Made by a program: the position numbers and the translations under genes
Source of the DNA: Brachybacterium timonense
GTDB lineage: Bacteria > Actinomycetota > Actinomycetes > Actinomycetales > Dermabacteraceae
Direction: 5' to 3'
Assembly (NCBI RefSeq): GCF_900258505.1
Contig: NZ_LT984895.1
Coordinates: 2,126,479 to 2,190,478 of the forward strand
DNA: 64,000 nucleotides
In this document: in pieces, positions 7,414-13,037 of the stretch
Position numbering within the stretch: the first letter of the stretch is position 1
Layout of the letters: each line of letters starts with the position of its first letter
Notes under the pieces: model-generated
What the model was told of the DNA's origin: nothing
What the model saw: the letters and a program-made list of their open reading frames with translations, nothing else
Databases searched by the model: none

Positions 7414-9537
7414 ATGCTGAACACCGGTGACCGTACCCGCGCCGACCTTGACCCCTTACTCACCCCATGGAAAATCGGAAACGTCGAGATCAAGAACCGG
7501 GTGGTTCTCACCTCCATGGGTGGAACAAACCTGTTCGGGTGGATGGAGAAGAACCACTTCGATCAAGCCGGCGCAGATTTCATGCGCACCGTCGCGGAGA
7601 ACGAAGTCGGCCTAGTGCTACCCGGCTGTCAAGCCATCTACAACCCGATCGGCGGACAGTGGCTGCACCGCAACAAGAAGATGTACCGCGATCTCGCCGA
7701 GTGGATGCCGCAGCTGCACCGCACTGGTGCAAAACTGTTCGTACAGCTCACCGCCGGATTCGGCCGCTCCTTCGCCATCAGCGAGATGATGGAGAAAATC
7801 GCGATGAACCCCGCGCTGAAGAAGGTAGCCAAGCCCATCCTGGACATCGACAAGGTGATGGCTGCCCCCAGCCCCACCCCGAACCGGTGGTCGGATAAGG
7901 TCAGCTCCCGCGAGATGACCCTAGAGGAGATCCAAGAGTTCATCGACTCGTTCGCTGAAACATCCGCGCTTCTGCAGGAAGCCGGCGTAGACGGCGTCGA
8001 GATCCACGCGGTGCATGAGGGCTATCTGCTGGACCAGTTCGCAATGCCATACACGAACCACCGCACCGACCAGTACGGCGGCAGCCTCGAGAACCGGCTG
8101 CGCTTCGCCACCGACATCGTCAAAGCCATCAAGGCTCGCTGCGGGAAGGAATTCCCTGTCTCCCTGCGCTATTCGGTGACCAGCAAGACGAAGGGCTTCA
8201 ACGAAGGGGCCCTGCCCGGCGAAGAGTTCACCGAAGCAGGTCGCACGCTCGAGGAATCCGAGAAAGCCGCCAGGATCCTGCAGGACGCCGGCTACGACAT
8301 GCTCAACTGCGACAACGGCACCTACGACGCCTGGTACTGGGCCCACCCGCCGATCTACATGCCCGAGAACTGCAACCTGGCCGATGTGGAGCACATCCGA
8401 AAGTTCGTGGACATTCCAGTGGTGTGCGCGGGCCGCATGGACCCGTACGTGGGCGCCGACTCTGTTGCCGCCGGCCGCATCGATGCCGTCGGCTTCGCCC
8501 GCAGCTTCCTGGCTGATCCCGCATGGTTTGCCAAGCTCATCGCTGATAAGCCCGAGGATGTGCGCCCCTGCATCTACTGCCATTTGGGCTGCTTCAACAT
8601 GGCCAGCTGGAAGGGTGTGCCGAATGTTCAGTCCCTCGGCGATTCACTGAACCTCTCGCGCTGCGCGGTTAATGCCGAGACCATGCAGAAGAACCGCCAC
8701 TACATCAAGAAGACCTCGTCCGCGAAGCGCGTAGTCATCGTCGGTGGTGGCATCGCCGGTATGGAATGTGCCCGCGTGCTCACCGAGCGCGGTCACACCC
8801 CCGTGATCTACGAGTCGAGTGATCACCTGGGCGGGGTCGTGGCAGCGTCGGCGAAGGAAGAGTCCAAAGCCCCGATGGGGTCGTTGCTGAACTGGTTCAC
8901 CCGCGAGATGGAACGCCTGAACGTCGACGTGCACCTGAACACCCCGGTGCTGCCCGGCAAGGACGGAGCTCTTGTGCTCACGGACGGCACCCAGATCGCC
9001 AGCGGCGATGACCACGTGGTGATCGCCACCGGTTCCACCGCGAAGAAACTGCCGATCCCGGGATTCGATCACGCGATCGACGCGATCGACTTCCTGCACG
9101 GAAAGGCGGACGTCGGCCAGAAGGTCGTGGTGCTCGGCGGCGGCGTGACCGGCTGCGAGCTTGCGTACGACCTGCATCATCACAAGGGCAAGGAGCCGGT
9201 GATCGTGGAGATGAAGCACGATCTGATCGCCCAGGAGGGCATCTGCCTGGCGAACTCCTCCTACCTGCGCGATTACTTCGCGCTGCACAAGGTGCCGGTG
9301 CATCTGGAGACTCAGGTGCAGCGTATTGAGGACGGCACCGTGATCTGTACGCAGGCAGACGGCACCCCCGTGTCGATCCCGTGCGATTCGGTGATCTCCG
9401 CCGTTGGGTACACGCCGCAGCCTCTGGATGCGAAGCGCTCTCGCAAGCGCACTCACATCATCGGTGACTGCGACGAGATCGGTAACGTCAAAACCGCTGT
9501 GTGGTCCGCCTACAAGGCGGCCATGAAGATCGACTGA
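7414..9537 (+). CDS. Flavin/Fe-S NAD(P)H oxidoreductase (2,4-dienoyl-CoA reductase / enoate reductase type)
   Basis: A 707-residue two-part enzyme. Residues 10-380 form an old-yellow-enzyme FMN barrel with the signature EIHAVHEGYLLDQF followed by YGGSLENRLRF. Cys386, 389, 393 and 417 would bind a 4Fe-4S cluster. From 439 comes an FAD/NAD(P)H domain with VIVGGGIAGME and a second nucleotide fold VVVLGGGVTGCE. This is the architecture of 2,4-dienoyl-CoA reductase, 2-enoate reductase and BaiCD/BaiH-like enzymes, which reduce C=C bonds next to a carbonyl. Two oddities are about 20 extra residues near 120-165 and an enlarged last Cys spacing. ATG 7414 follows ACAGGAGAC. The gene is divergent from the HAD gene and monocistronic. 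The substrate is not predictable. Confidence 0.87.
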   Translation: MLNTGDRTRADLDPLLTPWKIGNVEIKNRVVLTSMGGTNLFGWMEKNHFDQAGADFMRTVAENEVGLVLPGCQAIYNPIGGQWLHRNKKMYRDLAEWMPQLHRTGAKLFVQLTAGFGRSFAISEMMEKIAMNPALKKVAKPILDIDKVMAAPSPTPNRWSDKVSSREMTLEEIQEFIDSFAETSALLQEAGVDGVEIHAVHEGYLLDQFAMPYTNHRTDQYGGSLENRLRFATDIVKAIKARCGKEFPVSLRYSVTSKTKGFNEGALPGEEFTEAGRTLEESEKAARILQDAGYDMLNCDNGTYDAWYWAHPPIYMPENCNLADVEHIRKFVDIPVVCAGRMDPYVGADSVAAGRIDAVGFARSFLADPAWFAKLIADKPEDVRPCIYCHLGCFNMASWKGVPNVQSLGDSLNLSRCAVNAETMQKNRHYIKKTSSAKRVVIVGGGIAGMECARVLTERGHTPVIYESSDHLGGVVAASAKEESKAPMGSLLNWFTREMERLNVDVHLNTPVLPGKDGALVLTDGTQIASGDDHVVIATGSTAKKLPIPGFDHAIDAIDFLHGKADVGQKVVVLGGGVTGCELAYDLHHHKGKEPVIVEMKHDLIAQEGICLANSSYLRDYFALHKVPVHLETQVQRIEDGTVICTQADGTPVSIPCDSVISAVGYTPQPLDAKRSRKRTHIIGDCDEIGNVKTAVWSAYKAAMKID

Positions 9538-9682: not shown

Positions 9683-11590
9683 GTGAGCACCAGCACCAGC
9701 GCAGATACGAAGAAGTCGACCACCGACCGCATCATCTGGGTCGATTGCGAGATGACCGGGCTCGACAAGCAGCGTGATGCTCTGATCGAGATCGCCGTTC
9801 TCGTCACCGACGCGAACCTCAACATCCTGGGCGACGGCGTCGATGTCGTGATCCGCCCACCCGCTGAAGCGCTCGAGCAGATGGATGACTTCGTCCGCAC
9901 CATGCACACGACCTCCGGACTTCTTCAGGAGCTCGATGGGGGCATGACGCTGGAGGAGGCCCAGGAGAAGTGCCTGGCCTATGTCCGCGAGCACTGCCCC
10001 GAGCCGGGCAAGGCGCCGCTGGCCGGCAACAGCGTCGGCACCGACCGCGCCTTTCTTGACCGGGACGTGCCCGACTTCGCCGACTGGCTCTCGTACCGCA
10101 CGATCGACGTCTCCAGTCTGAAGGAGCTCGCCAAACGCTGGTTCCCCCGGGTCTACTACAACACTCCCGCCAAGCACGGTGGCCACCGTGCGCTCGCTGA
10201 CATCCGCGAGTCCATCCAAGAGCTGAAGTACTACCGCTCGGTGCTGTTCTGCGCCGAGCCGGGACCGACCACCGCCCAGGCCCAGGAAGCGTCGAAGGCC
10301 TTCGAACTGCGAGACGAGGAGAACGCTGTGCCCCCCGCCCCGAGCACCCCGAGCACCTGGCTCGACACCCGTGTCCATACCACGTGGCTGGAGGGCGAGG
10401 GCGATGAACTGCTCGGCTTCGGCGCGGCCTCCGCTCGCGACGACGCCGGTTTCGCCTGGCTCGATGACACCGGTGAACGTGATCTGTCGCGCCCCGCGGA
10501 GCTGTGGATCACCTGCCGCATGACCCATTGCTTCGCCCTGGGCCACATGATGGGTCGGCCGGATCTGGGCCGCTTCGTCGATCATGGAGTCGCTGCGCTG
10601 ACCGGTGCGTTCAAGGACACCGAGTACGGCGGCTGGTTCGCCGCGGTCGCCGACGGCGAACCGGTCGACGATACGAAGCAGGCCTACGCTCATGCCTTCG
10701 TGGTCCTCGCGGCCGCCTCCGCGACCGCCGCGGGCCGTCCCGGCGCACAGGAGCTACTCGACGAAGCTCTCCAGGTGCTCGATGAGAAGTTCTTCGATGA
10801 AACCACCGGCATGAGCGTGGACACCTATGACCGCACCTTCTCGGACTGCGAGGAGTATCGCGGCATCAACGCGAACATGCACACCGTTGAGGCGCTGCTC
10901 GCAGCGGCCGACGTCACGGGTGAGCGCATGTGGCTCGACCGAGCCGTCGGTATCGCTACCCGTGCGATCGACGAGTTCGCCCGCAACAACGACTGGGCAC
11001 TGCCGGAGCATTTCGATGTGCAGTGGAACCCGCTGCTGGACTACAACCGCGACCAGCCGAACCATCCGTTCCGCCCCTACGGGGCCACCATCGGCCACTG
11101 GATCGAGTGGGCTCGCCTGGTGCTGCATGCTCGCGCCGCGCTCATTCAGCTCGACGGTGAGGCACCAGAGTGGATGCTCGAGGCCGCGACTGCACTGATG
11201 GAGAAGTCCGCGCAGTCCTTCGGGGCCGATGGGGAGCCGGGCTGGGTGTACACCGTCGACTGGGACGGCTCCCCGATGGCCCGTGAGCGGATGCACTGGG
11301 TGGCTGCAGAGGCCGTGGGCGCTGCGGCGGTCATGTACCGGGTGACCGGCGACCGCGTCTGGGCCGAGCGCTACCAGCAGTGGTGGGAGTACATCGCCGC
11401 CTACCTGCTGGATGCCGAGGACGGCTCCTGGTTCCACGAGCTCGGTGCCACCAATCAGCCGCAGGGCGTGACCTGGCCGGGCAAGCCGGACATTTACCAC
11501 GCGTTCCAGGCCACGATCATCCCGCGCCTCCCGGTCACGCCGACCATGGCGGCCGCGCTGCGCGACGGGCTGCTCGACGACGAGTTCTGA
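9683..11590 (+). CDS. orn: Oligoribonuclease fused to an AGE-family sugar isomerase/epimerase
   Basis: One uninterrupted 635-codon frame encodes two proteins that are normally separate. Residues 14-205 are oligoribonuclease, the DEDDh 3'-5' exonuclease that clears 2-5-nt RNA: Asp21 and Glu23 in VDCEMTGLD, Asp121 in GTDRAFLDRD, and His168/Asp173 in HRALAD. Residues 225-635 are an N-acylglucosamine 2-epimerase-like alpha/alpha barrel, closest in motifs to mannose/sulfoquinovose isomerases, with conserved His400 (NMHTVE), His472 (GHWIEWARL), His538 (MHWVAAE) and His606 (KPDIYHAFQ). Codon 216 is a GTG preceded by GAGGAG at good spacing, right where a normal Orn would end, so the isomerase could also be made alone. 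GTG 9683 is probably leaderless. The domain calls are strong; the fusion needs confirming at protein level. Confidence 0.9.
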   Translation: MSTSTSADTKKSTTDRIIWVDCEMTGLDKQRDALIEIAVLVTDANLNILGDGVDVVIRPPAEALEQMDDFVRTMHTTSGLLQELDGGMTLEEAQEKCLAYVREHCPEPGKAPLAGNSVGTDRAFLDRDVPDFADWLSYRTIDVSSLKELAKRWFPRVYYNTPAKHGGHRALADIRESIQELKYYRSVLFCAEPGPTTAQAQEASKAFELRDEENAVPPAPSTPSTWLDTRVHTTWLEGEGDELLGFGAASARDDAGFAWLDDTGERDLSRPAELWITCRMTHCFALGHMMGRPDLGRFVDHGVAALTGAFKDTEYGGWFAAVADGEPVDDTKQAYAHAFVVLAAASATAAGRPGAQELLDEALQVLDEKFFDETTGMSVDTYDRTFSDCEEYRGINANMHTVEALLAAADVTGERMWLDRAVGIATRAIDEFARNNDWALPEHFDVQWNPLLDYNRDQPNHPFRPYGATIGHWIEWARLVLHARAALIQLDGEAPEWMLEAATALMEKSAQSFGADGEPGWVYTVDWDGSPMARERMHWVAAEAVGAAAVMYRVTGDRVWAERYQQWWEYIAAYLLDAEDGSWFHELGATNQPQGVTWPGKPDIYHAFQATIIPRLPVTPTMAAALRDGLLDDEF

Positions 11591-12132: not shown

Positions 12133-12209
12133 GGTGGTCGTAGCTCAGCTGGTAGAGCTCCTGGTTGTGGTCCAGGCGGTCGCGGGTTCAAATCCCGTCG
12201 ATCACCCCA
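12133..12209 (+). tRNA. tRNA-His (anticodon GTG)
   Basis: A 77-nt gene with the extra G-1 opposite C73, acceptor GTGGTCG/CGATCAC, anticodon GTG, and an encoded CCA at 12207-12209, the only one of the five tRNAs here with an encoded CCA. Confidence 0.95.
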
Positions 12210-12211
12210 AT

Positions 12212-12240
12212 AAACGCCCTGGTCACAGGGCGTTTTTCTC
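12212..12240 (+). terminator. Rho-independent terminator of tRNA-His
   Basis: A perfect 9-bp stem AAACGCCCT/AGGGCGTTT with a 6-nt loop runs into TTTTTCTC, two bases after the tRNA CCA. Its sequence also overlaps the last codons of the minus-strand threonine dehydratase remnant. Confidence 0.93.
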
Positions 12241-13037
12241 TTTCAAGCGGTGGAGTGCAGCAAGCCGGGCGAGTTTGGTGTTGCCGCCGGAGAGGATCAC
12301 CCCGACCCGTTGCCCCGCCGCGTCGGCAGCGCCGGTCAGCACAGCCGCGGCAGCGAGCGCCCCGGTGGGTTCCACCAGCGTCTTCATCCGCTCCAGCAGG
12401 AAACGGCAAGCGTGCAGCAGCTCATCATCTGTCACGGTCACGATCTGCTCGAGCTCGCGGCGCAGCACCGGGAACGTGTGTTGCCCGAGCGCCGTGGTCT
12501 GTGCACCGTCGGCCACTGTGTGCGGCGCGTCGATCTGCACGATGCGCCCCGCGGCAAGCGACTGTTGAGCGTCATCGCCAGCCGCGGGCTCCACGCCGAT
12601 GACCCGGATGCTTGGCCGTAGTGCGCGAGCTGCTCTCGGGACTCGGTGTAGCGGTCGAAGTCGATCACGCGCGCGCCGTACCCCGCGGTGGCTTCCCGTT
12701 TGAGCCTCGGCGCATCCTTCGGCATCAGCACGGTGGCCTGCACCCCGAGCTCCCGGGCGGCAAGCGCGACCGCCTGGGCATGGTTCCCGGAGGAGTACAC
12801 CACCACTGCCCGCTCCCGCTCCTGCACAGGGCGGGACGCGATGGCATTGAATGCGCCGCGCACTTTGAACGCCCCGGTGCGCTGCAGGTTCTCCGCTTTG
12901 CAAAACACACGGGCGCCGGTTGCATTATCGAGCGTGCGCGAGGTCAGGACCGGTGTGCGGTGCACTCGTCCGGCCACTCGCTTCACTGCGGCGCGCACAT
13001 CGTCGATCGTGACGGGCAGGGGCTCGTGGGTGTTCAT
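12223..13037 (-). pseudogene. ilvA: Threonine/serine dehydratase with internal deletion and frameshift
   Basis: The remnant of a PLP-dependent threonine ammonia-lyase without ACT domain (catabolic TdcB/serine racemase-like). The N-terminal part (13037 to about 12612, 142 residues) is intact, including the PLP lysine in GAFKVRGAFNAI and SSGNHAQAVA. The C-terminal part (about 12605 to 12223, 129 residues from SIRVIGVEPAAGDD to GGNTKLARLA) is in another frame. Between YTESREQLAHYG and SIRVIGVE about 50 residues are missing compared with the roughly 320-residue family, including the glycine-rich loop that holds the PLP phosphate. The junction is therefore a deletion plus frame change, and the protein cannot work. 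The family is confident; the exact reaction is less so. Confidence 0.85.

Follow-up and report, generated by a model that had tools for sequence, protein, structure and literature searches.

Fusion of oligoribonuclease and a putative sugar isomerase in a single gene of Brachybacterium and Helcobacillus

Introduction

Oligoribonuclease (Orn) is among the most conserved of the small housekeeping enzymes and is often essential. In the 64,000-nucleotide stretch of the Brachybacterium timonense genome analysed here (the window; contig NZ_LT984895.1, positions 2,126,479 to 2,190,478) it shares one reading frame with a sugar isomerase of the AGE family. We know of nothing in metabolism that connects dinucleotides with mannose, and the locus raises the question of what kind of object this gene is: a product of sequencing error, an operon in which a stop codon was lost in one strain, or a bifunctional protein that is maintained. 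A preliminary description of the sequence had left the choice between stop-codon loss and a new bifunctional protein, and had added that an internal start codon could supply a free isomerase as well. Both component enzymes are already known, although the architecture is new and apparently undescribed; our search of the open-access literature, with subscription papers outside it, found no earlier description of an Orn-isomerase fusion.

Two enzymes in one reading frame

The gene, referred to here as orn-manI (Table 1), starts with GTG, ends with TGA, and contains no internal stop in its 635 codons. Since the whole open frame spans just 638 codons, an alternative upstream start has almost no room. 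The N-terminal half matches RNase_T (residues 18-180; 87.9 bits against a Pfam cutoff of 24) and lies above the curated oligoribonuclease cutoff (NCBIfam NF003765; 250 versus 106 bits). The C-terminal half matches GlcNAc_2-epim (PF07221; residues 256-610; 370.8 bits against a Pfam cutoff of 23.4), which places it in the AGE superfamily. Its best NCBIfam name is D-mannose isomerase (NF051846), with a score of 489.9 bits that falls below the equivalog cutoff of 600; the substrate is therefore uncertain and the equivalog name is not applied. A search of the genome gives no second match to either half beyond the fused gene.

All of the catalytic residues checked are identical across 34 aligned fusions. 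In the Orn half these are the DEDDh residues D21, E23, D121, H168 and D173, and the phosphate-cap (P-cap) residues S117, Y138, R139 and S144, with roles assigned after PMC9676404; in the isomerase half they are H400, H472, H606, R279, R464 and E475, of which the three histidines correspond to those that define the YihS subfamily (PMC7762179). Among the same 34 fusions the Orn core averages 84% identity to the window protein and the isomerase 78%, against 68% for the Orn tail and 27% for the linker. The description of two complete enzymes in one stop-free frame is thus borne out by the reading frame, the profile matches and the catalytic residues, and so is the placing of the junction at the natural end of Orn, as free Orns of the order end approximately 24-63 residues past the YYR motif. 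Annotators should be warned that a database entry named solely oligoribonuclease or solely epimerase would conceal the other half.

Table 1. Features of the orn-manI locus, in window coordinates.
Feature	Position	Strand	Basis or remark
Fused gene orn-manI, 635 aa, predicted ~70 kDa	9683..11590	+	ORF, Pfam, NCBIfam, conserved fusion
Orn domain, DEDDh exonuclease, residues 13-188	9719..10246	+	Pfam/NCBIfam, invariant residues in 34 aligned fusions
Actinobacterial Orn C-terminal tail, residues 189-207, predicted helix 197-206	10247..10303	+	AlphaFold, free-Orn tails, PMC9676404
Variable Ala/Pro-rich linker, predicted disordered, residues 208-224	10304..10354	+	27% identity, composition, pLDDT
GAGGAG (10316-10321) and in-frame GTG (10328-10330), possible internal start	10316..10330	+	Specific to window strain
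ManI/YihS-type AGE domain, (alpha/alpha)6 barrel, residues 225-635	10355..11587	+	Pfam, alignment, AlphaFold, structural match
tRNA-His	12134..12209	+	Probably marks manI insertion site

Two neighbouring genes are of note. At 7414-9537 (+) there is a large flavoenzyme with Oxidored_FMN and Pyr_redox_2 domains that resembles bilirubin reductase and BaiCD, with scores below the cutoffs of both families. A broken gene of the PALP family (threonine dehydratase-like) occupies 12223-13037 (-), with its start in an ORF at 12438-13037 and its end in another frame at 12223-12903; the middle is seemingly absent at about position 12600 and the gene looks like a deletion pseudogene.

The final step of RNA decay is the cleavage of dinucleotides by Orn (PMC6613908). 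Neither a DHH (NrnA/NrnB-type) back-up nanoRNase nor a GGDEF protein was found in the window genome, and its one PF01612 match, in a 498-codon frame, looks by its length like RNase D. Judged from these searches, the genome seems to have no recognised nanoRNase other than the fused Orn, and the lack of both DHH-type and GGDEF proteins suggests that this enzyme probably clears dinucleotides in general and does not serve to turn over c-di-GMP. What is apparently the sole Orn copy of a genus is permanently tied to a sugar enzyme.

Distribution of the fusion and of the separate genes

Close genomes were searched for the same fusion, as the preliminary description had proposed, and the frame is open, with no stop at the junction, in 37/37 Brachybacterium genomes that hold the locus (38 genomes of the genus sampled); three of these loci break off at contig ends downstream of the junction. 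Helcobacillus massiliensis also carries the fusion, at 65% identity. Among named Brachybacterium records, 19 of the 20 retrieved show it and the remaining one ends at a contig end. Brachybacterium sp. Z12 has an intact Orn half, and a frameshift and a TGA interrupt its isomerase half roughly three quarters of the way along; this break may be a sequencing error, the genome being only 85% complete. Outside the Dermabacteraceae no single match with both halves was present in a phylum-wide sample of 246 genomes, and there was none among the matches listed for an order-wide sample of 396 genomes, where fusions would rank at the top.

In the other genera of the Dermabacteraceae orn and manI are neighbours on the same strand but are separate; some of these pairs overlap or have only a few bases between them, in a different frame. 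The free pairs (in Dermabacter, the TAE3 isolates, strain 31B and genus g3) have the same genes, order and strand as the fusion and encode orthologous proteins; unlike the Brachybacterium fusion they are two separate reading frames, and manI has its own start codon. The start codons of the separate manI genes fall where the fused linker ends. At two Dermabacter loci (L036 and L037) the two genes are in the same frame with a TAG and a short spacer between them that has its own GGAG and ATG, an arrangement that is either ancestral or a re-split fusion.

Elsewhere in the Micrococcales, most of the genomes sampled have tRNA-His next after orn and lack an isomerase in the vicinity; in 18 of 21 genomes sampled outside the family the tRNA lies directly after orn, within approximately 160 nt of its end. 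A search extending 8 kb from manI in 20 genomes of other families found no orn, nor was there one in the 3 kb flanks (shorter at contig ends) of the manI loci sampled outside the Dermabacteraceae. In strain 31B, the TAE3 isolates and Helcobacillus the tRNA-His gene is instead located about 110-145 nt past manI, and the spacing is larger in Brachybacterium. Because tRNA-His follows orn elsewhere and manI in these strains, the gap between orn and tRNA-His is most likely where manI was inserted, in an ancestor of the Dermabacteraceae.

In an RpoB tree the unfused strain 31B, TAE3 isolates and genus g3 branch first, followed by Brachybacterium and a clade of Helcobacillus plus Dermabacter. The pattern of fused and split genes requires two changes on this tree, which could be separate fusions in Brachybacterium and in Helcobacillus or a single fusion that Dermabacter later split again. 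In the isomerase tree the Helcobacillus domain falls with Dermabacter and not with Brachybacterium, which fits the species tree and is compatible with both histories. The two options of the preliminary description each prove partly right: the operon pair seen in the relatives has lost its stop, and the fused product has been kept throughout a genus. The Dermabacteraceae and their relatives thus provide a graded series, from no pair to operon pair to fusion, for studying how and why unrelated enzymes become fused.

We propose, with a probability of about 75%, that orn-manI is a fixed and translated fusion that arose from an operon pair by stop loss and encodes a bifunctional protein of ~70 kDa with independent active sites. 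A stand-alone manI, whose product is an aldose-ketose isomerase belonging to the YihS/D-mannose isomerase group, would have landed between orn and tRNA-His in an ancestor of the family and formed an operon with orn, in second place, and the separating stop would then have been lost in frame in the Brachybacterium line and in Helcobacillus to give one protein. The sequences themselves show the joined frame and its conservation, the intact active-site residues, the linker and the split relatives; we infer that both activities are present. The Orn half would dimerise through its core and tail helix and cut dinucleotides to mononucleotides, and the disordered Ala/Pro linker would carry the isomerase barrel, giving an Orn dimer with two tethered isomerase domains. 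The barrel would interconvert a free sugar, probably D-mannose and D-fructose, and the active sites would most likely work independently. Such a fusion would persist because it is harmless and fixes a 1:1 ratio of the enzymes, and its persistence across the genus could also reflect positive selection for physical linkage.

The junction and alternative readings

Codon 216 is a GTG with GAGGAG 6 nt upstream, and it is a plausible start in the window strain. Two products, the fusion and a free isomerase begun at this codon, could then be made at least in this strain; the separate manI genes of the relatives begin at nearly the same place, and four other fusions have a linker start codon behind a Shine-Dalgarno-like word. 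However, 33 of the 38 fusions have no such site, and the Orn tail ends in acidic residues, which account for the GAG GAG codons. Over the 38 fusions the junction is depleted in start codons, with in-frame start codons at 40 of 1620 linker codons (2.5%) against 1268 of 21441 codons in the gene bodies (5.9%), and Shine-Dalgarno-like words precede them at close to the background rate (5/40 in linkers and 92/1268 in bodies). With no enrichment, an internal start is rejected as a conserved feature, and nothing in these counts suggests that the genus maintains a free isomerase. The site noted earlier is present, but the pairing of GTG and GAGGAG belongs to the window strain and dual production does not extend to a general feature; as the pair is not conserved in relatives, the fusion is the form that evolution preserves. 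We consider two products unlikely even in this strain.

The stretch formed by the Orn tail and linker has 14 distinct lengths in the 38 fusions, from 75 to 183 nt and all multiples of three, and past the tail it is rich in alanine (29%) and proline (24%). Differences at codon positions 1, 2 and 3 number 163, 154 and 235 over 22 close pairs, and this excess at the third position, in pairs compared ungapped, may be taken as a modest sign of translation. An AlphaFold model (mean pLDDT 89.6, pTM 0.69) has two confident domains separated by a low-confidence linker (pLDDT <50 at residues 213-220), and predicts an Orn fold with its tail helix, a disordered linker, and a very confident (alpha/alpha)6 barrel.

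The join itself may have a function, through regulation, localisation or channelling of the isomerase by way of the nuclease or of the nuclease by way of the isomerase. The fusion has been retained without re-splitting across the genus, which numbers at least 37 species, the operon pair persists in the other Dermabacteraceae, and Helcobacillus is a possible second independent fusion. The linker, however, is unconserved and in some species as long as about 55 codons, and both properties speak against a fixed contact between the domains; at the two loci looked at elsewhere manI stands alone with no fixed neighbours. A connection to c-di-GMP was considered and rejected, as GGDEF proteins are absent from the genome. 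Persistence of the join is all that speaks for a functional reason behind it, and on balance we think such a reason improbable. The more specific proposal that the fusion is adaptive, such that the state of dinucleotide or RNA turnover controls sugar isomerisation or is controlled by it through the shared protein, is quite unlikely; if true, it would connect RNA recycling with carbon metabolism in a manner that has no known parallel.

It is very unlikely that the fusion is made and then cut by a protease in its linker so that the working enzymes are separate. The predicted disorder and the free variation in sequence and length would suit such cleavage, but no conserved cleavage motif is visible among the linkers, and Ala/Pro-rich linkers are common in stable multidomain proteins. 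Finally, the chance that a sequencing or assembly error deleted a stop or shifted the frame is negligible, for although the broken PALP-family gene nearby makes regional damage or error conceivable, the identical open junction in 37 independent Brachybacterium genomes and Helcobacillus effectively answers the earlier suggestion that resequencing might find a stop or frameshift there, and likewise rules out stop loss in one strain.

Comparison with known enzymes

The Orn half resembles Mycobacterium smegmatis MSMEG_4724 Orn (PDB matches 7wik and 9f7m; 228 and 227 bits), with which it shares the DEDDh residues, the phosphate cap, and a PGP-type C-terminal tail. The dimer of the M. smegmatis enzyme is stabilised by the tail helix alpha10 of each chain lying against the other subunit (PMC9676404); the predicted tail helix of the fusion corresponds to alpha10, and similar tails are present in other actinobacterial Orns sampled. 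By analogy, a homodimer with diribonuclease activity is expected (PMC9676404, PMC6613908). The tail ends the protein in M. smegmatis Orn, whereas in the fusion it continues by way of the linker into a second enzyme.

The isomerase half is 46-47% identical over the whole domain to YihS/sulfoquinovose isomerase (PDB 7ag4, 2zbl, 2afa, 2rgk). Structural comparison, in which the matches listed are to the isomerase half, gives Z scores of 62-64 and an rmsd of 1.1-1.3 Å over 407-411 residues. YihS H176 (by alignment), H248 and H383 correspond to H400, H472 and H606 of the fusion. The positions of YihS Gln362 and Gln379, which we take to be the sulfonate contacts, are occupied by His585 and Pro602, invariant in 34 fusions, and this departure from sulfoquinovose isomerase makes a sulfosugar substrate less likely. 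The substrate is most likely D-mannose/D-fructose. The three-histidine active centre of the YihS subfamily is also that of the Pseudomonas geniculata AGEase (PMC7762179) and is shared by the fusion. The AGE-family D-mannose isomerase of PDB 5x32 belongs to the same family but has just 26% identity to the isomerase described here, which is fused to Orn.
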